Source: Polytrichum commune (lineage: Eukaryota; Streptophyta; Polytrichopsida; Polytrichales; Polytrichaceae). From it: a stretch of 64,000 nucleotides of DNA. The stretch lies in NCBI GenBank assembly GCA_950295325.1, contig OX485805.1:868501-932500 (forward strand), read 5' to 3'. The first letter of the stretch is position 1; every line of letters begins with the position of its first letter. The position numbers and the translations under genes are program-made. Below are positions 268-61,158 of the stretch, one piece after another. A model generated the notes under the pieces. That model saw only the letters and a program-made list of their open reading frames with translations. It made no database searches and had not been told where the DNA came from.

Positions 268-586
268 CGATAGAGTGGTTGGTTTTGAGAATCCAAGAGC
301 ACACATGGAAGTTATGGGGGTCTGAAGCTGCTGGGGGCTTCTAGCCCCAGCGGCGAAGGGAAAAGGCATGGCATGAAGGTCAGATACTTCACATGGGATG
401 AGTACATCATGTACATGATAAAGGGCACAAGCATGGTCAAGTACACAGTCTATATGTTTGACAAAGTTTTTGTTCAACAATATAGGCAATATTTGTCACA
501 TAACACACATACATCTTAAAACCCCAAAAACCAAAAACATACAATATTACACATGGAACAACTCCACACTCATTCTTCTAGGCGGA

Positions 587-610
587 GACATACAACTTAA
601 CCCGGGCCCA
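587..610 (+). other. 2A-like motif 1 (DIQLNPGP)
   Basis: Codons read D-I-Q-L-N-P-G-P directly after LILLGG. The skip would occur before the final proline codon at 608-610. Gln replaces the usual Glu of the consensus. Confidence 0.7.
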
Positions 611-901
611 CTATCACACACCTCAAAAAGACCCCACATAAACTGCACACCAAAATCAAGATAAGATCCTATGATTAATTCAACCACACCCAAAATCCAA
701 TATGCCCAACTAGAAAGGCTACCCCCCACACACCTAACAAAACACACTACTCACCCCACCACACTCGGCCTAGGCCACCTACATCAACATACACCACCAC
801 CCTCCAAATTCTCGCCACATCACCTTACTCACACACTCACACCAACATATAAACTAGCTACATACATTATAGACCTACAAACACTCATACTTCTTAGTTG
901 T

Positions 902-925
902 GACATACAACCTAACCCCGGACCA
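902..925 (+). other. 2A-like motif 2 (DIQPNPGP)
   Basis: Codons read D-I-Q-P-N-P-G-P after LILLSC. It lies 105 codons after motif 1 in the same frame, beyond the stop at 662. Confidence 0.7.
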
Positions 926-1117
926 AACACACACATAACCAATAACCTCCCCCGGGATTATACACAAAGGCAAAGACACTATTTCATACCTAATACCACC
1001 ACACCCAAGCCCTCATACACACACCTAGAAAGATTACTCTCAATACACCTAACACATAACTCGCTTAACCAAGAACTAACCAACATACACAGTCACCTCC
1101 TCCTACTACAATGTGGA

Positions 1118-1141
1118 GATATCCACCCTAATCCAGGCCCC
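1118..1141 (+). other. 2A-like motif 3 (DIHPNPGP)
   Basis: Codons read D-I-H-P-N-P-G-P after LLLLQCG, 72 codons after motif 2 in the same frame. Metazoan retroelements with a DVHPNPGP-type core are known to me; that comparison is from memory of the family, not a search. Confidence 0.7.
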
Positions 1142-1795
1142 ATGCCCAACCTATTACAAACACACCTCACCTCCCACAAAAGACGTCAAACAACATACTT
1201 CCTTTCATGCACGATTAAATTTCAACCGGAATACCAACACCTAGCTACTACATTCAAACCTCTCTTCCAAAATATACACGTCCTACACACACAAACAATT
1301 AACTCACTCCCATACCTATACAACTATATACAACAACATAGTACACATCCCCCCCCCATGGATAATCTATGCAATGATCGTAATAATTAGTCCCTCAATT
1401 ATAATATGTAACACACAACTACAACAACAACCTACACAAGATTGGACAACTCAACTACTAGTCTACTAGATAAAATGACAAGACTGACCAACCCACCGGA
1501 GAGGCACATAAACACACCACATCCTTATACACAATTTCGGAACATATACGAAGATACAATCACCCCTCCCAACACAATACACAACAAACTATATGACTAC
1601 ATACACCAAAACCATGCTTTACTCAACATTCAACATTTACAAGAAACATTTCCATACTTACCAAGACAACTATTAATAGAGGCACTAAGAGTTAACGAGC
1701 CCATAAATGAATACACACGCCCTAACCCCCCTCCAATTCCAAACCCGACACCTTCGCACAATCCAACCCCACTAACTAGCCAAAACACATACGCT

Positions 1796-2527
1796 ATAAC
1801 CTGAAACGCATCATCACTTAACACCGCCATGCCATGCCTCCAAGACCTAATTACACATCACCAACAACCCCCGTTAATCATCACCATACAAGAAACCAAA
1901 TTGACCGCCACTAAATCCACAAAACACATACAACGCCTATTCCCTCAATATAAACACTTCTTTAATAACACACATAACATCACAAAGGTCACACGCCAAC
2001 GAATAACATATAGAGGATTCAGAGGAGGCCTACTCCTACTAATCCATAATAAACATGCATTCCCGAGTAACCTCTCCAAAATACCCACCCCCGCCGATAT
2101 ATCCCCGTTCCTCCAAATAACACGAATAGCAAACCATCCTTTACAACCCTGGATCCTAATTAATCTATACATGCCTTCACACGAGGAAGACCTCCCCCTC
2201 ATCCCCATCATACAAACCACCATAACTAACCAAATAGCCACCCACCCTAACCACATATATATCTTGTGCGGAGACTTCAATAGGGACATAGCTCTAATAA
2301 ATAGACAAAACGACCAACAAATGGAAGACTATAATTGGCGTTCATTTACTACCGGCCTTGAACTATCATACGTCCCGACAAACACAACATTCTCAAGACA
2401 AGGAGGACATAACTACACACAAAACAGCTTAATAAATGGATTCTTCATAAAAACCTCCCAAAACCATCAGTACACCTCAACTACAAACCAAACTATTCAG
2501 TTAAACTCCGATCATTTACCTATATAA
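1796..2527 (+). other. LINE APE-type endonuclease domain
   Basis: After the TGA at 1802 the frame gives NASSLNTAMPCLQDLI and then IQETKL, the metal-binding Glu motif of AP-endonuclease-like LINE nucleases. Further on come GGLLLLI, the central CGDFN motif near 2270, and the C-terminal NSDHLPI at 2503-2523, which holds the catalytic Asp-His pair. The order and spacing fit a complete domain of about 240 residues. A TAA at 2525, probably a former CAA, ends the open part. Its role in an intact element is to nick the target DNA and prime reverse transcription. Confidence 0.85.
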
Positions 2528-3367: not shown

Positions 3368-4732
3368 TTGCACGACCTAAATGGATATATTATAGAAAAG
3401 AGAGGTGAGGCCCTAATCCCCCTACACACATATCTAGACCAAGAAACATATGATATATGCCTCAAAAATTTAGCCACTGGAAAAATCCCCGGCCTCGATA
3501 AAATTCCTAATACCATACTAAAAAACATGCCACCAAGATTCCATACGCTATTATTACTATTTTTCACCCATTGTCACAAACATAAACAAATTCCAAAAGC
3601 ATGGAAAACAAGCCTCACAATATTACTATACAAAAAAAGAAATCCCCACCAACTTACCAACCGTCGACCAATCACACTCGCCAATACTATCTATAAATTA
3701 TTCACTAGTACACTCACAAATATACTCTCCTCATACGGAGAAAAACACCAAATTCTACATGATAGCCAAGAGGGCTTTGGAGCTGAAAGATGCACCGCCA
3801 GACAACTACAAACTATCATCGCAGCACTAGAAGATGCAAGACTTACCAACCAAGATATCTATATCCTATACATAGACTTCAAAAACGCCTTTGGCTCCAT
3901 TGATCATGCTCAACTTCTTGCCATTATGAAAGACCTAGGATACCCACAAGATGCCGTAGCACTAGTAGGTAGTATATATTCACAATCAAATACAACATTC
4001 ATCGGTGAACACTTCGACAGAACACAACCAATACCCATACAACGAGGAACAATACAAGGCGATACCTTGAGCCCATACCTCTTCATCATCTTTCTTGAAC
4101 CACTTCTTAGATGGCTACAACAAGAAAATAATGGCTATACCTTCAACACCTCTAGTACAAAATTGAGCTCCGCAGCCTACGCCGACGACCTCGAGGCCAT
4201 ATCCAACAATATAACATCCCTCCAACACCAACTAAACAAACTAGACAAATATTGTGAATGGGCAGGCATGGACCTCGGAATTCCAAAATGTGTCGTCACT
4301 GGATGCCCCAATAGATCAAAACTAAGCCCTCAGGCCTTCAAAACACACCTTAGAAATATTAACATAAATTTCCGCAACCAATCCATACCTATCCTAAGCC
4401 AACATGAGTCTTATGTCTACCTTGGAATCAATCTCGTGCCATCACTGCAATGGAAAATACAAACACACATTACAACAACTAAATTAATCAAACAATGCAA
4501 ATTGCTAACCACATGCCCAGCCACCATGAAACAAAAAATTCAAATGGTAGACACAGTCATAAGAGCCGGTATCGCCTATAGCTTCTACGCCGTACCATAC
4601 TCACTCCCCGCCATCAAAAAATTAGATAAGAGAATAACTGCCCTCCACAAAACCATATGTGGTCTCCCGAAATGCCTATCAAACGCCGTTACACAACTAC
4701 CACAAAATATGTTTGGCACCGAAGCCTTCTGA
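3368..4732 (+). other. LINE reverse transcriptase domain
   Basis: The open stretch gives 454 residues. Fingers/palm motifs are visible in order: IPGLDKIPNTILK (motif 0-1), NRRPITLANTIYKLF (motif 2), a QEGFG segment, IDFKNAFGSIDH with the motif A aspartates, QRGTIQGDTLSPYLF (motif B), and YADD at 4178-4189 (motif C) followed by a WAGMDLGIPKC segment. All catalytic aspartates are present. The frame ends at the TGA at 4731, where Trp would fit, and the thumb region continues in frame beyond it. This is a non-LTR type RT: motif order and lack of an LTR protease/integrase support this. Confidence 0.92.
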
Positions 4733-5925: not shown

Positions 5926-8121
5926 ATGCCCAAAAATGACCCCCTCAAACTCGCACAATACACCCTCCCAAATGCCATCATTGAAAACCTCATCAACTCC
6001 TTCCACATCACCCACTCCTACTTCTCGTCACCTGTAACATGCCCTACCACGCTAAAACAATTTTTCTCCCCATACCCCCGAGATAAAGTATTCGGATCAA
6101 TAGGAACAACATTCCAACATAAATGGGTAGGGAACGGGTATGCCCACCCACACACAGAAGCAGACACACAACAAGCCCTACATTGGGCAAGACTTGCAGC
6201 CCAAAATAACCCAGATACAATCACAATCCTCATAACAACCGACCCAAATTGGTACCACAACCTTCAGCCACACGTAGGCCCTTTTCCAGATTCACACGTC
6301 ATCACACACTTCAAGGCGGACACCATTATATACGCTGAAACCACCATACCACCGGAACTACGAATTGAACCACGCACCGAAAGCCGTGACATTCGCATAC
6401 TATGTATACACCACAAAACCACGTCAATCGGCCCGAGAAATTACGCACACCAAATGGGCACTATTGGCAAAACCTTACAGATACCCACTATATTTAACAC
6501 AACGGCGCCACCCACACCAATAAATACTCTAGTAAACCGTAGCAAGAAATGGTCCCAACTCATATACCCTCCCCCACCTACGACCCAAGCTATTCATGTC
6601 CCCATCATCACAAATCAAGACATATGCCTTCCCCTCAAATATCAACCACAGTTCTGTTATTACACAGATGGATCATTCATCCCACCCAAAGAAACAACCC
6701 AAGGACATTGGAAACGAGAAAAAGCAGGATATGGCATATATAACCCTTTCAAAAACCTCCAAATTATAGAAAGACTACCCGGACTCCAAAATATACTAAG
6801 AGCCGAACTAATGGCTATACACCATACCCTCCGCCTCCTCACTACCACATATCGAAATGAACCGGCACACATCTTCACAGATTGTCTTAATGTGCTATAC
6901 TTATTAAACACACAAATAAAACATCCAACCCTACATAATAGCCACCCGGACAAAAAGATACTCGAATCTATAATCGAGATGTTGCAATCCCGCTCACAAA
7001 CCACCACACTCCATAAAGTCAAAGCTCACACAAACATTAGTGGTAACGAACAAGCGGACAAATTAGCCAAAATGGGTTGTGAACTCGAACATAGAGATGC
7101 CACAATCACATATGAACATGCACACCCCACGCCATACTACCTACAGAAAGATTGGTGGCACTCAATGCAAGAAACACCAGATAAAGGCCCCATCCGACAC
7201 CTTGGTAAATACATCGCTAAACATGACAAAAAATATAACTTATCCATCATAGCAATCCAAACACATCAACTACACAAGTGGCTAGACAACAAAGATATTG
7301 ACAAAGCACTATCAAACGACTTTTGGAACAACCCGATTATCACAGATAAACAAAAAACATGCCTTGTCAAATTTAGAACCGGACAATACATGGGACATGC
7401 TAGAAAACAACTCTTCTTCGGAAGAAATGCATACCCCTCACATACGTGCTCCATATGCAACGCACAAGAAGCAGACACATGGTTACATGTGCTCCTCAAA
7501 TGTAAACAACAACACATACACGCACTAATAACCAAAAGACATAACAAAGCCGTATGGGAAATACGCAAACTTCTCATCTCAAACAAAAAGACAAGATACT
7601 ACACACTCATGAATGCAGGTACATATAATGAGCTCCCCCAAGAAAACACAGTACCATCGTGGTTACTCCCATGCACATGTACCACCCAAAGATGTCACTG
7701 CAACGCTAGGCTCAAACCTGACATATTATGCATACTAGGACACCCATATCAATCCCCACCACTAGAAGCACCCACACCGGAAATTACAGTTCAATTTATA
7801 GAATTCACATACTGTAATGACAGATTCTCCACTGAAACCATAAATCAAAAAATTACAAAATATCAACCACTCATAAATAATATTATCGCAAAAGGTTGGA
7901 ATGTAGCCCCACTTATTGTATTAGCATCTAGTGCTAGAGCCACAACTCACATCCCCTCAATGAACGAACTCGAAACAAAGCTTAAACTTCCTACACCACA
8001 AATTAGGAACACATTCAAACAACTCAACATAATTGCCATACAATATGCACATTCAATATTAATCCACAAAAGACGAATAGAAAATAGACAACCCATCACA
8101 GATTTACAAAACCATAATTAA
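5926..8121 (+). other. LINE C-terminal region with RNase H domain and Cys/His motif
   Basis: The 731-residue open frame, offset by one base from the RT frame, contains an RNase H fold: YYTDGSFIP (first Asp), LRAELMAIHHTL (Glu), IFTDCLNVLYLL (second Asp), and VKAHTNISGNEQADKLAKMG (last His/Asp). About 100 residues later there is C-x2-C-x8-H-x4-C (CSICNAQEADTWLHVLLKC), the zinc-binding motif found after RT in many plant LINEs. The shift from the previous frame maps to the 11-C run at 5647-5657, so this is probably the end of the same polyprotein and not a separate ORF. Confidence 0.85.
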
Positions 8122-8654
8122 AATTAGAGAGGGGTAGTGGTCAGACCACTAGTTATTAAGATACCACCTATAGCTCAGAAAGGCGGGGAATAGCTGGCTG
8201 GTTGGCATAACTTTCCTGCCTATGATTAACTCACTTGCAGCACCAAGTCAAAGTGTATTACACTAACACGCTCAGACAGATTCAACGCGAATCGAACCCG
8301 GACCGTATTAATATAACACACATGTCCTTACCCAACCAACCTTGGAACCATGACTTGGCGACCAACTATACAACCAACCAACACTTATACTCCAAACAAA
8401 TATGCACGCTTCCCGTCTAAACAAAGTAACAGGACTCACAAAACTATAATTAAAAAATTATGAACCCAACACACACACCCCCCCCCCACGGTTAATCCGT
8501 AAAACCTCTAGTTACTAACATAGTGTCTACTCCCTGAAAGGGGTGAAGTAGTATTTCATCCAAAGCCACTACCGTGAGGTATGGCCACGGATGTCCTACG
8601 AACAGACACTTTATTCACTCCGCCCCCCCCCCTAGGCGGGACCGGAGTTCTTCT
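8122..8654 (+). other. LINE 3' flank/untranslated region with hairpin
   Basis: After the LINE stop, bases 8135-8141 (TAGTGGT) pair perfectly with 8145-8151 around CAG, and 8526-8550 forms a weaker hairpin (CTAC...GTAG). LINE 3' hairpins often serve for recognition by the RT. C runs occur at about 8470 and 8624. No poly(A) tail or target-site duplication could be fixed, so the 3' end of the element is not placed. Confidence 0.4.
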
Positions 8655-8815
8655 TCTTCTGACAAAGTTTTTGCAAGTTTTTCTCTTTTGACACGCAAAA
8701 ACTTGCACAAAAAAAAAGGCACGTCAATTGACACGTACAATCTAGAAATTGACACGTACTGTGTGACTTGTGAAGAAAAAAACCACACGTCAATTGACAC
8801 ACTAGAAATTGAAAT
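8655..8815. repeat. About 155-bp block with inverted repeats, shared with 26.2 kb
   Basis: The block from TGACAAAGTTTTTGCAAG to ACACTAGAAAT recurs almost base for base at about 26,211-26,360. It contains an 11-bp inverted repeat (TGCAAGTTTTT / AAAAACTTGCA) and several copies of ATTGACACG, including the palindrome GTCAATTGAC. At both places a hAT transposase fragment follows on the plus strand. Interpretation: a subterminal region of a hAT subfamily, or a small MITE carried along with it. Confidence 0.65.
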
Positions 8816-9170
8816 GACACGTATCACTTGAGTACTATAAAGTGCAGCTCAAGTATCCGGAAAACATAACCCATAACAACTGGTAGGAGAACTTCCTACA
8901 CTCACTCACATACTTAAGTTCAACTTTGCTCTTGCAATTTCCTTTGTAACCGGGAGCTAAGACGGTGATCGGAGAACGAGACTAACTAGGAACATGGCGA
9001 GGCAAATGTTTGTATCACCGTGGTGCTTGCACATCCTCCACTCCATATGAGTTTTTTCTTGCTTCCAACCAATGTGAGTTTTTCTTGCTTTCAACCAAAA
9101 TTGTTTTGAGCAATTCCCTTTGAATCGCAAAGCTCCCTTGTTGAAAGCATCTGAATCCCTTTGAGCTTTC

Positions 9171-9966
9171 TTGGAGCTGGAGAGGCTTCTTATTGCAAAA
9201 ATGATGCAGAAGTGGCACGAAGATCAGCGCCTGCTTTCGGTTAGGATTTTATCCGGGAATGTACCTATGTTTGGTCGTACAAGCAAGAATTTGGGAAAAT
9301 TCTTGAGGGAATCTGCAAAAAATCTTCAATTGAGTTATGAAAATAATAAAGGAGATCGTATTATTTATGCATTGGCAACCGATGGGCCCAATGAACTACA
9401 ACAATGCGTATTGTTGGGTGCATCTTATGTGCAAAGAGTTGTTCATGCTTTGAACGATCGTTTCCCAGACCTTCCAATATTCAATGCGGCCAAACTTTTC
9501 AGCCCTTGTAATTATCCAAGCGATGATAGTCACCAAATCACAAATACCGAATTGTGGCTCGAAAGGATATTGTTGAAGTTTCAATACACTGAAGAAGAGA
9601 GTAACATGTGTAAGGGAGAACTTTTGGAATTTACAGAAACACTTCGACATGAGTGTGAGAACAAAACGATATTTGTGGCTTGACGCATATGTGGTAGCAA
9701 TTTGGAATGGCACACAAATTGGCCTAAACTTATGCAACTTTGGCAAAAAAATTATACTCATTCCATCAAGTATAGCTATTTGTGAGAGAGGATTTTCCAA
9801 ACAAAATGCAATCAAAAGCCACTTGTGCAATAGGTTGAACTTGAAGACCCTTGATGCTCTTATGTGGGTTTCTCTTTGTGGGCTTGAAGTGGATGCAATG
9901 GATTGGGCTACCACCTTCAACATTTGGAGAAGCATGCGAGACCGAAGGATACTTATGCTCGATTGA
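9171..9966 (+). pseudogene. hAT transposase C-terminal half, broken
   Basis: The first part reads to FPDLPIFNAAKLFSP and LLEFTETLRHECENK, closely parallel to the intact copies at 55.3 and 60.9 kb. A TGA at 9681 stands where those copies have the Trp of HEDW. After it the same frame continues to NWPKLMQLWQ, then a shift in the A run near 9745 moves into another frame, which gives IAICERGFSKQNAIKS and LKTLDALMWVSL, the hAT C-terminal dimerisation domain (CERGFS core). The N-terminal BED finger and most of the catalytic domain are absent. An inverted copy of TATGTTTGACAAA near 10,150 may mark the right end. Confidence 0.8.
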
Positions 9967-54865: not shown

Positions 54866-55067
54866 AGTTATTTTGTAAAGTAAAGGAGATGAAACCATGG
54901 GCTTAGTCCCAAACCTTGAGTAACTTTATGAGAATTAACATAAAGTCACCCACATTCCTCAATGCTTAAATTACCATACACAAAGAGTGGTGTTGGGCTA
55001 TTAAAAACGGTGTTCTAGCTTGTCCTACTAGGATGGGTGGGCCAAGCTAGCCTTGCATAGGCCAATC

Positions 55068-56173
55068 CAGTGCTCAAAATTGAAGTCTTCAGTGCCCTTC
55101 AAATGGGTTTTGGGACTTCAAAAAATACCTCAAGGAAAACAACCCTTCAAAACATAATCCTCATGTCTAAGTGCTCCCTTCACTTGAAGTGCTGGATAAA
55201 TAGTACCCTTCAAGTACTGTTCATCATCTCAAGTAGCCGTTTAACTCCGGCTGTCTAACTTTGGGCTCCAGATCTCATATCCAGATGGGAATTAGTCCAA
55301 ATGGGAATTGTATGTTGATAGGTTTGGTTGTGAGAAAGTGCATACTTTGCACTATGACTCTATGCCCAGGTGTGATGTAGGGGGCTCGTTGGAGGATTGC
55401 ATCACCCTTGGTAGACTATACGTCCAAAAGGTTATTGACTCACTAAATGATCGTTTCCCCGACTTGCCCATTTTTAATGCGGCCAGGCTTTTCAACCCAA
55501 AACACTATCCCATGGATGCATTGGATCGAGGCACTTTAACTGAGCAATGGTTGAACCGGTTGGTGACACATTTCAAGGGGAGCTCTGTTCTTGTTGATCA
55601 AGCCAATGCGGAGTTGCTCGAATTTGTGGAGATGTTATCTTTAGCTTGTCAACACCAAAGTATGCATGAAGATTGGGTTTTTTGTGGCCGTGACCGAGAG
55701 TTTAAGATCAATTGGCCAACCCTAATGTCGCTATGGCAAGCCATACTTGTGATCCCTACTAGCACTGCTGTTTGTGAGCGTGGTTTTTCAAAGCATAATT
55801 GGGTTAAGAGCGAAAGGAGAACATGCCTAAACCTTGACACACTTGATGCATTGATGAGGGTTAGCCTAAATAGTTTGGGAGTTGAATTCATGGATTGGAA
55901 TGGCATTTTTGACACTTGGAAAACCGCTACAGTAACCAACAAGCGTAGGGCATTGTCACTTCAAGAGGTGGAGTTAGATAGTTGATTCTCCATTATTTCA
56001 TTGTACTAGAAGCATGTACCATGCAAATCATGCATAATTTTAATATAAGTTTTATATTTCTTTGAAAATTTTCCATTGACGTCCTAGATTTAGATATGCC
56101 CTTCAATTGCAATGCTGAAATTTCAGAGCCCTTCAAAATGAAATTCATATGAGGGCTTCAATTTTGAGCACTG
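55068..56173 (+). mobile_element. hAT element copy A, 1,106 bp, 8-bp target duplication GGCCAATC
   Basis: TIR CAGTGCTCAAAATTGAAG at both ends. The flanks are a perfect 8-bp repeat GGCCAATC (55,060-55,067; 56,174-56,181). Subterminal repeats of CCCTTCAA/TTGAAGGG occur at both ends (for example AGTGCCCTTCAAATGGG on the left and ATGCCCTTCAATTGCAATGC on the right). It encodes only the C-terminal part of the transposase. Copy B at 60,046-61,150 is nearly identical in opposite orientation. Confidence 0.95.
55308..55985 (+). CDS. hAT transposase C-terminal fragment (225 codons), copy A
   Basis: The open frame begins at a TTG, so no genuine start is certain; the fragment could be expressed only from an internal ATG or by fusion. 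It reads ITLGRLYVQKVIDSLNDRFP, FNAARLFNPKHYP, WLNRLVTHFKGSS, HEDWVFCGRDREF, WPTLMSLWQAILVIPTS, CERGFSKHNWVKSERR and LNLDTLDALMRVSL: the end of the RNase H-like fold and the hAT dimerisation domain. No stop or frameshift is present, and the translation is identical to that of copy B. The BED zinc finger and the first catalytic aspartates are absent, so the element depends on a transposase supplied elsewhere. Confidence 0.85.
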   Translation: MYVDRFGCEKVHTLHYDSMPRCDVGGSLEDCITLGRLYVQKVIDSLNDRFPDLPIFNAARLFNPKHYPMDALDRGTLTEQWLNRLVTHFKGSSVLVDQANAELLEFVEMLSLACQHQSMHEDWVFCGRDREFKINWPTLMSLWQAILVIPTSTAVCERGFSKHNWVKSERRTCLNLDTLDALMRVSLNSLGVEFMDWNGIFDTWKTATVTNKRRALSLQEVELDS

Positions 56174-58667: not shown

Positions 58668-59859
58668 CTATAACAAAAGTTTCTCGCAAAGAACGAACAC
58701 CATACCATACATTCTTCTCAATGGACCAATTCACTCTTTCATCTTGTGTTCTAAATTGCTCGAAGGTATTTGAAAATTTTATATAGATGCATATGTGAAG
58801 GTCAAATGTACTTACACCATAACTCGCACACTTCCTCTAGGTTCACTGGCTTTGCATCTTAGAATACTCCTACGAAAAATCATTCAGAATCCATATTTCT
58901 GACCAAGTTTATCAATGCGGACTGAAGAACCCTTGTATGTTTGCTCCTCTAGGTAATAATTTGTTACTACATATGGAACGCTAAAAGAAACAGATGACAA
59001 GTTGAGAGTGTTATGGAGATGGCCATGTCATTGAGAAGTTAATCCAAATTTTTCCATGAATACAATCTTTCGTCTTCAGATAGTTTCAAAGCAGGGAGCC
59101 CTTATATTTGGCAAGTGTGTAGAAGGAAATTCTTCCGCTTTTGTTTTGGCCTTCTGTGGACCTTACATTGCCAACTTTAACTTGGAGGGCTTATGCTCCC
59201 TCTTCAAGTGGATGCTTTCTTACTATGATACGACCTCTAATGGGTAACACATAGTTTTATCGGACATAACATCGTTACGCAACGCTGTTAAGAGCTGCTG
59301 TATTTGTTAAGACTACAAGAATCTGAGTGTTGATTAAACCTCAGGTATCGGTCCTGTACACAGTAAAGTTAAATGAAACGATGTGCACATTCTTGCAACA
59401 ATGTGGGGTTTTGATGCTTCCCCCTGAAAACTCAAGTTTCTCAGTTTAAAACCGAACAACTTCGAATCGCAATACAAAAAACAAAACCTGATAGACAAAT
59501 ATGGGAAGAGGATTGACCTCAGAAACAGAATGGGCATCACTCAATGCTGCAATAACAACAACTGTGATTGTCTGAAAACAAGCGGTGATTTGGGAGTCGG
59601 GCTTATCCAAGTGTTCGGTTATCCATCAGAGTACATGTACTTTTGAAAGTCGAGTTTACCCTCCCATATCCAAAAAGCCATCATGGTAGGAAGAAAGATG
59701 AGTTTGAGCTCTACGCTTCACCCAAGACTAAAGGCAAAGCAGGGGTGCGGTGATTGCCCCATAGACGTTGCGAGAAACTCTGTGAGCAGGATCATGAGAT
59801 CAGATGAAGACCACGCCATCACGACAATACTTGAACAGGATGTGTTCTACAGTGCATAC

Positions 59860-60000
59860 CTTTGATCTGTGTTTTCCAATGCAGACAAGATCTTCATCCC
59901 GGACGATGAGACAGAACTGTCCACCCTGAGCGCGAATACCGCAGCCATTCGGCCAGACATGGTCGGGAATTGGGATGCTTGATGAACATCCTATCGGCAT
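59860..60000 (-). CDS. Candidate first coding exon of the same minus-strand gene
   Basis: ATG at 60,000 gives MPIGCSSSIPIPDHVWPNGC, then GIRAQGGQFCLIVRDEDLVC and IGKHRSK, followed by a consensus donor (AAAG/GTATGC) at 59,860/59,859. GC content is raised. A short upstream frame (ATGGCC near 60,042, 13 codons) precedes it and overlaps the target duplication of a hAT element. The element starts 45 bases upstream of the ATG, so the natural leader or promoter has been split. Function unknown; exons between 58.7 and 59.8 kb were not resolved. Confidence 0.5.
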
Positions 60001-60045
60001 TTACGGCGGCGGAGATGGATGGAGAGTGTTCTGAAGGGCCATTGT

Positions 60046-61150
60046 CAGTGCTCAAATTGAAGCCCTCATATGAATTTCATTTTGAAGGGCTCTGAAATTT
60101 CAGCATTGCAATTGAAGGGCATATCTAAATCTAGGACGTCAATGGAAAATTTTCAAAGAAATATAAAACTTATATTAAAATTATGCATGATTTGCATGGT
60201 ACATGCTTCTAGTACAATGAAATAATGGAGAATCAACTATCTAACTCCACCTCTTGAAGTGACAATGCCCTACGCTTGTTGGTTACTGTAGCGGTTTTCC
60301 AAGTGTCAAAAATGCCATTCCAATCCATGAATTCAACTCCCAAACTATTTAGGCTAACCCTCATCAATGCATCAAGTGTGTCAAGGTTTAGGCATGTTCT
60401 CCTTTCGCTCTTAACCCAATTATGCTTTGAAAAACCACGCTCACAAACAGCAGTGCTAGTAGGGATCACAAGTATGGCTTGCCATAGCGACATTAGGGTT
60501 GGCCAATTGATCTTAAACTCTCGGTCACGGCCACAAAAAACCCAATCTTCATGCATACTTTGGTGTTGACAAGCTAAAGATAACATCTCCACAAATTCGA
60601 GCAACTCCGCATTGGCTTGATCAACAAGAACAGAGCTCCCCTTGAAATGTGTCACCAACCGGTTCAACCATTGCTCAGTTAAAGTGCCTCGATCCAATGC
60701 ATCCATGGGATAGTGTTTTGGGTTGAAAAGCCTGGCCGCATTAAAAATGGGCAAGTCGGGGAAACGATCATTTAGTGAGTCAATAACCTTTTGGACGTAT
60801 AGTCTACCAAGGGTGATGCAATCCTCCAACGAGCCCCCTACATCACACCTGGGCATAGAGTCATAGTGCAAAGTATGCACTTTCTCACAACCAAACCTAT
60901 CAACATACAATTCCCATTTGGACTAATTCCCATCTGGATATGAGATCTGGAGCCCAAAGTTAGACAGCCGGAGTTAAACGGCTACTTGAGATGATGAACA
61001 GTACTTGAAGGGTACTATTTATCCAGCACTTCAAGTGAAGGGAGCACTTAGACATGAGGATTATGTTTTGAAGGGTTGTTTTCCTTGAGGTATTTTTTGA
61101 AGTCCCAAAACCCATTTGAAGGGCACTGAAGACTTCAATTTTGAGCACTG
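60046..61150 (-). mobile_element. hAT element copy B, 1,105 bp, 8-bp target duplication GCCATTGT
   Basis: The inverse of copy A over its full length, with one A fewer in the left TIR (CAGTGCTCAAATTGAAG). The flanks are a perfect 8-bp repeat GCCATTGT (60,038-60,045; 61,151-61,158), different from that of copy A, so the two are independent insertions and not a segmental inverted duplication. Confidence 0.95.
60233..60910 (-). CDS. hAT transposase C-terminal fragment (225 codons), copy B
   Basis: The translation is identical to that of copy A at 55,308-55,985, including CERGFS and LDTLDALMRVSL of the dimerisation domain. The frame reads away from the element's right end toward the candidate host exon at 60,000, so readthrough could enter that gene on the same strand. 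Confidence 0.85.
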   Translation of the reverse strand: MYVDRFGCEKVHTLHYDSMPRCDVGGSLEDCITLGRLYVQKVIDSLNDRFPDLPIFNAARLFNPKHYPMDALDRGTLTEQWLNRLVTHFKGSSVLVDQANAELLEFVEMLSLACQHQSMHEDWVFCGRDREFKINWPTLMSLWQAILVIPTSTAVCERGFSKHNWVKSERRTCLNLDTLDALMRVSLNSLGVEFMDWNGIFDTWKTATVTNKRRALSLQEVELDS

Positions 61151-61158
61151 GCCATTGT

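Follow-up and report, generated by a model that had tools for sequence, protein, structure and literature searches.

The window, the whole stretch of 64,000 nucleotides analysed here, lies at positions 868501-932500 of contig C3 in a 408-Mb assembly that comprises 64 contigs and carries three NPGP cores in one frame near its left end. The question that this locus raises is what a series of 2A-like (StopGo) sites does at the front of a LINE and how such a series came about. We put the probability at roughly 0.7 that the following explanation holds as a whole: the window contains a plant LINE copy that is inactivated and truncated at its 5' end, in the family of this LINE ORF2 opens with StopGo/2A sites, and the array accreted by repeated exchange of the 5' end, which was tolerated since StopGo frees the enzymes from any leader.

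The LINE copy in the window and its host

The three cores are located on the + strand at 599, 914 and 1130 and are separated by 315 and 216 nt (105 and 72 codons), as originally predicted, and each of them follows the expected Leu/Ile run (LILLGGDIQL-NPGP, LILLSCDIQP-NPGP and LLLLQCGDIHP-NPGP). The motifs were rightly described as 2A-like; the canonical core (D/G/C/N)(V/I)ExNPGP is absent from the window, where Q, Q and H occupy the Glu position. No further NPGP was found in the six frames of the 64-kb window. A chance origin of the cores in a C/A-rich strand was ruled out with Markov sequences and a reversed-pattern control: D[IV]xxNPGP occurred in 0 of 400 first-order Markov sequences of the element's composition, in which NPGP itself was expected 0.085 times per 7.7 kb over three frames, and the DNA pattern for GDIxxNPGP gave 420 exact matches in the 408 Mb, compared with 0 for the reversed control.

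One LINE copy spans from approximately 474 to past 8120 on the + strand of the window, and blastn homology to other copies extends from approximately 474 to at least 8322, where most of the fetched loci end. The leftmost recognisable LINE sequence (474..566, +), at whose first base the matches to L011, L017, L019 and L023 begin, is a remnant of the ORF2 leader before unit 1; this copy lacks ORF1 and the greater part of the leader. On the same strand, 2A unit 1 (..YYTWNNSTLILLGGDIQLNPGP) occupies 509..610 with its NPGP at 599-610, unit 2 (..IIDLQTLILLSCDIQPNPGP) occupies 830..925 with its NPGP at 914-925, and the terminal unit 3 (..LLLLQCGDIHPNPGP), where the homology common to the subfamilies starts, occupies 1046..1141 with its NPGP at 1130-1141. 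A conserved domain of unknown function, which is 51-52% identical to L030 in L022 and L029, runs from the Pro of the last 2A (PMPNLLQ..) over 1139..1804 (+) and is interrupted by stops in the window copy. It is followed on the + strand by an APE-type endonuclease (1829..2527; PF14529, 28.9 bits, cut-off 27.4), a reverse transcriptase (RT; 3368..4732; PF00078, E 2.4e-28), a PCIF1-like domain (5953..6189; PF12237, 30.5 bits, slightly below the cut-off of 31.1), RNase H (6652..7080; PF00075, 57.8 bits) and the stop codon of the last ORF (8119..8121). The presence of both APE endonuclease and RT in the window and its relatives (PF14529, PF03372 and PF00078) identifies the element as an APE-type non-LTR retrotransposon (LINE). 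The window copy is dead; TAA 661-663 lies between cores 1 and 2, and further stops are found in the frame at 1388-1390, 1804, 2527 and beyond.

The proposed plant-hosted LINE was borne out by the host markers, and the array indeed stands in frame before an APE endonuclease-RT polyprotein, but the extent of 458..1390 given for it was not upheld, as the element is far longer. Four over-cut-off matches to SAM_LFY (the LEAFY SAM domain) were found on contigs C1 and C7, compared with 0 in 14 control genomes; LEAFY is, to our knowledge, confined to streptophytes. One LINE copy (L029) lies on C1 at approximately 0.4 Mb from one of these matches. Relatives with an RT at least 74% identical occupy at least 93 places on seven large and two small contigs, a count that is a lower bound because only 93 of 2290 candidates were scored. 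Animal contamination was ruled out by the LEAFY SAM matches and by the spread of RT relatives over contigs, and the LINE is a resident plant family. L012 and L026, which lie on different chromosomes and are 99% identical, mark recent spread. Relatives outside this genome were found neither in viral_contigs, searched with the RT or the post-2A alignment, nor in genome_contigs, searched with the RT.

In addition to the window and its exact counterpart on C24, we examined 40 of the 93 places that had been scored, namely 20 copies of 10 kb each (L009-L028), four copies with long open frames, each taken with 10 kb upstream of the RT (L029, L030, L031 and L032, with open frames of 2919, 2924, 2663 and 2625 codons, respectively), and 16 copies of 1.55 kb each (L033-L048). 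The copy at C24:9081-10442 has an RT 100% identical to that of the window and perhaps reflects a duplicated contig.

Other repeats were observed in the window. A separate repeat at 132-364, left-adjacent to the truncated LINE, is 81-84% identical to stretches in L010 and L027. Positions 55067-56173 and 60046-61151 form an inverted duplication, 99.9% identical over 1107 bases, both arms of which carry the same hAT dimerisation ORF. One arm adjoins a U3 snoRNA match at 59821-60039 (50.9 bits, gathering score 34).

Reading frame and codon constraint of the 2A units

Counting the modules in each copy with a 40-residue unit profile (HMM) revealed that multiple units are the rule in the window's subfamily: two to four units were present in 17 of the 20 copies L009-L028, one in L020 and L025 and none in L014. 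In the sister subfamily, the same profile detected one unit each in L029-L032 and in 13 of the 16 copies L033-L048, with none in the remaining 3. NPGP was kept in 47 of 53 HMM-detected units of L009-L032 and the window and in 11 of 13 of L033-L048. Among the matches listed for contig C1, 93 exact cores fell into 79 groups, 12 of which had two or three cores, and 13 of 14 spacings between neighbouring exact cores were multiples of three, exact matches only being counted.

The arrays are read in one frame. Of 27 pairs of neighbouring units, 24 were spaced by a multiple of 3. No stop lay between the first and the last core in 13 of 18 multi-unit copies, compared with 1-27 stops in the other frames, both of which carried stops in every multi-unit copy. 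Upstream of the last core, no other frame was open over as long a stretch as the 2A frame in any of the 36 copies compared (69-2754 nt for the 2A frame versus 3-147). No fully intact ORF2 was present among the fetched multi-2A copies, of which L017, with one stop, came nearest. The layout of ORF2 in sister copies is one to four 2A units within 211-580 open codons, followed by the unknown domain, APE endonuclease, RT, PCIF1-like domain and RNase H.

Comparison of related copies, whose pairs are non-independent, revealed mismatch frequencies at codon positions 1/2/3 of.197/.138/.380 for upstream 2A units (110 pairs) and.233/.140/.377 for terminal 2A units (111 pairs), compared with.219/.129/.378 for the 1200 nt behind the last 2A. 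The spacers between units (.172/.229/.208) were open but without codon constraint, and the leaders showed.160/.193/.222. Because the mismatch in the 2A units is concentrated at position 3, unlike that of the spacers, we consider that the units have been kept as peptide. The units were picked by their motif, and the NPGP columns themselves therefore prove nothing and were excluded from this argument. Upstream and terminal units thus share constraint at the codon level. The original prediction had named consensus elements with only one conserved motif as evidence against it; half of this was found, in that the sister subfamily has a single last unit, while in the window's subfamily the constraint on upstream units resembles that on the last one. 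The spacers as conserved small proteins were unsupported, since they lack codon constraint.

The last core also marks a boundary of conservation. Among 11 representatives, the mean amino-acid identity was.20 at codons -20 to -10 from the last NPGP,.68 at -10 to 0 and.79 at 0 to +10. Identity climbs from.20 to.68 over the ten codons that precede the last NPGP, which indicates that the conserved ORF2 begins at the cut site. The core codons are kept by selection and lie in frame between two translated parts, as is characteristic of StopGo.

Residue p14, predicted skipping and the start of ORF2

The two classes of units differed at residue p14. The terminal units (n=34) had H in 15, E in 14, K in 4 and R in 1, and the upstream units (n=26) had Q in 12, E in 7, H in 4, K in 2 and Y in 1. 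Taken together, E and H account for 29 of the 34 terminal units and 11 of the 26 upstream ones (p 0.0008 by Fisher's test, uncorrected for relatedness), and among distinct units for 23 of 25 and 8 of 19, respectively (p 0.0006, from few unit types and non-independent counts). Natural sites with H at p14 reach more than 95% skipping in vitro, and E14Q mutants reach 56% or 26% (PMC12846837, 2026). By likeness to such sites, ribosome skipping is predicted at the LINE 2A units.

It is improbable, in our judgement, that the units no longer skip and instead serve as simple linker peptides or as duplicated copies of a protein-protein motif at the ORF2 N-terminus. Such a role would fit the Q, H, K, R or Y that replaces the canonical E in many units, as well as the terminal cores that have lost NPGP (NPGS in L019, NHGP in L020, NLGP in L025 and L043 and KPGP in L048), but it agrees poorly with the canonical GDIExNPGP (E at p14) of 14 among the 34 terminal units and 7 among the 26 upstream ones, with the efficient skipping at natural H sites and with the onset of conservation at the cut site. 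For the young single-2A group of L030, L032, L036 and L041, which includes copies with long open frames, the residue at p14 is K, on whose activity no reports were found; skipping may be weak or unneeded in that group, which would speak against a strict need for it.

Of the 22 copies examined, 17 had a recognisable ORF1-like end with AUGnnUAG, which was in phase with the last 2A in 13 of the 17; it was not recognised in L017, L025, L027, L029 and L031. The AUG of this element opens ORF2 and overlaps the end of ORF1, and the frame from it to the last NPGP was open in 9 of 11 copies tested, over 211-580 codons. AUG-n2-stop is a known termination-reinitiation arrangement of SART1 and other mRNAs (PMC5972666), and the overlapping stop and start codons seen here have the same form, with UAG as the stop. 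Since ORF1 ends in AUGnnUAG, ORF2 is probably begun by termination-reinitiation. ORF1 and the leader gave no Pfam match over the cut-off.

At 12 ORF2 starts (from 10 copies, two of the starts being internal), we found a hydrophobic stretch that ends in NK at codons 24-27, with an identity of.30 compared with.12 over the next 24 codons. In L010, L013, L015, L018, L020-L024 and L030, it was observed as approximately 14 hydrophobic residues directly after AUGnnUAG. The segment had no third-position excess (.503/.521/.519), and it may therefore be conserved as RNA.

These features could be combined into graded targeting or dosage, in which a signal-anchor-like hydrophobic ORF2 start, weak Q units upstream and a strong E/H unit in the last place would set how much enzyme escapes from the leader. 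A parallel proposal exists for NLR proteins of sea urchins that carry a 2A signal at their N-terminus, and dual targeting by 2A has been demonstrated in animal and plant cells (PMC4981915); the conserved hydrophobic stretch and the enrichment of E/H in terminal units would also suit this scheme. We nevertheless regard it as unlikely, given that the ORF2-start segment lacks a third-position excess, that the p14 counts come from few, non-independent unit types and that the 2A units are too little hydrophobic for a membrane span. The last point also led us to reject the 2A units as membrane spans, as the median best 19-residue mean was 0.33.

Probable front-end exchange, known relatives and the PCIF1-like domain

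The window contains a direct DNA repeat in which the 2A core and the following spacer occur twice, at 566..739 (+, with the TAA at 661-663 inside it) and 881..1054 (+), with 66% identity between the copies, followed by the third core. A shared TPK..LERL..HLT segment had been placed in front of all three cores; the segment is indeed shared, but it is present in two copies rather than three and lies behind cores 1 and 2. It is a degenerate duplicate of the beginning of the domain behind the last 2A, and the spacer after unit 2 is recognisable as such (z 7.0 versus 200 shuffles). The array had been described as a tandem triplication, a description that we abandoned, as the window units differ in type and age and repeated 5'-end exchange explains the family better. 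In particular, unit 1 shows 92-97% DNA identity to the units that come first in L011, L017, L019 and L023, and the similarity of L012 and L026 to the window does not begin until 828, inside unit 2. A recent triplication within the window copy was ruled out, since the units are of different types.

Superposition of closely related copies revealed that their leaders have been exchanged. In the 3 kb that follow the last 2A, L012, L013, L015, L018 and L023 are 95.6-96.7% identical. Upstream of it, alignments at 80% identity reach only to -101 or are absent for most pairs of these copies, with L013/L023 and L018/L023 sharing more upstream sequence than the other pairs. Additionally, L011, L017 and L019 match L023 at 96% and are short of exactly one 306-nt module. 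In L017, the join lies inside the 2A core, at GG[AT]GACAT, where the third unit of L023 passes into its last unit.

Remnants of earlier junctions were also found. A recognisable start of the post-2A domain is present behind 8 of 26 upstream cores, including window core 2 (z 5.7-12.5; for the L016 core at 2462, the score was reached by one of 200 shuffles), and a stricter profile search recovered such a remnant behind only three upstream cores. The leaders of L022 and L028 contain the last 51 nt of ORF1 (88% to L030) up to its stop and then a second AUGnnUAG in phase, and that of L024 contains 37 nt of the ORF1 tail (92% to L021). The leaders of L011, L019 and L023 have a second segment resembling the ORF2 start. 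An ORF1-tail BLAST match was found in only 3 of 15 leaders.

Plain tandem duplication, by which the array would have grown and shrunk in one lineage through slippage or unequal recombination of the 2A-plus-spacer module and with no exchange of 5' ends, would account for the 66% repeat in the window and for the one-module difference between the L017 type and L023. Internal direct repeats of approximately 45-260 nt, which have no 2A core, are likewise present in single-2A subfamily leaders (L031, L033, L037, L040 and L043-L048). We consider it a doubtful explanation of the family, because it leaves unexplained both the unrelated leaders on 96%-identical cores and the remnants of ORF1 tails and ORF2 starts that some leaders contain. 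The number of modules could also have changed through unequal exchange or tandem duplication at the DNA level.

Under the preferred explanation of 5'-end exchange, ribosomes would terminate at the end of ORF1, reinitiate at the ORF2 AUG and read, in a single frame, through the divergent leader and then one to four 2A units. The leader would be released at the last NPG|P, and the endonuclease-RT-PCIF1-like-RNase H polyprotein would then be made with Pro as its first residue. Because this release would free the enzymes from any preceding sequence, ORF1, leader and 2A, which make up the 5' part, would be exchangeable between copies, and this part has probably been swapped by template switching in reverse transcription, most simply onto another element RNA. 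A join made in frame upstream of an existing 2A would leave the older 2A behind, and repeated exchange would yield a 2A array with decaying remnants between its units. We give about even odds to the further proposal that StopGo acts as a universal joint, at which the front end was replaced repeatedly by template switching with the predecessor's 2A left in place, such that the array is both a record of exchanges and a fail-safe series of skips. LINE-1 chimeras formed by template switching or RNA ligation have been documented, and new 5' ends mark new subfamilies there (PMC13174262). The composite insertions are alike; unlike in LINE-1, the exchange here reaches into ORF2, with the joint at or upstream of a 2A.

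The presence of 2A in LINEs is not new. It has reportedly been described for LINEs of animals by Odon et al. 2013 and Luke et al. 2014. L1Tc of Trypanosoma cruzi is a 2A-bearing non-LTR retrotransposon (PMC4748587). As in the present family, L1Tc and animal APE-type LINEs carry APE endonuclease, RT and RNase H in one polyprotein with 2A in frame before it; they differ from the elements described here in the land-plant host, the one to four 2A units, the exchangeable leaders and the PCIF1-like domain of the latter. Among the papers listed in our literature searches, none dealt with 2A in plant LINEs or with an array of 2A sites in a LINE of any host. StopGo/2A of RNA viruses similarly has (G)D(I/V)xxNPGP after a Leu-rich run, and some picornaviruses have several in-frame sites (PMC11512398, PMC12846837). 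In contrast to the viral cases, the host element is a plant retrotransposon, its spacers are decayed duplicates of the following domain, and many units have Q, H or K at the Glu position. No natural StopGo use by plant viruses is reported in a 2026 survey (PMC12846837). If the predicted skipping is real, these elements would represent natural StopGo use in a land plant and would provide many new natural 2A variants (Q, H and K at the Glu position) already matched to plant ribosomes. They would also suggest a mechanism of modular LINE evolution in which a co-translational cut renders front ends interchangeable.

A PCIF1-like domain (cap adenosine methyltransferase family) was observed between the RT and RNase H of the LINE polyprotein, and a literature search found no paper on such a domain in this position. 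A PDB profile search with the region returned PCIF1 only, at a non-significant E of 0.38, and the predicted fold was discarded (mean pLDDT 35). At the site that we take to be the catalytic NPPF of PCIF1, the copies read AHPH (or AHPR, AHPD), and the domain may therefore be inactive. In the two copies tested, L016 and L019, PF12237 scored 37.1 and 37.5 bits, above the cut-off of 31.1 (6399-9791).
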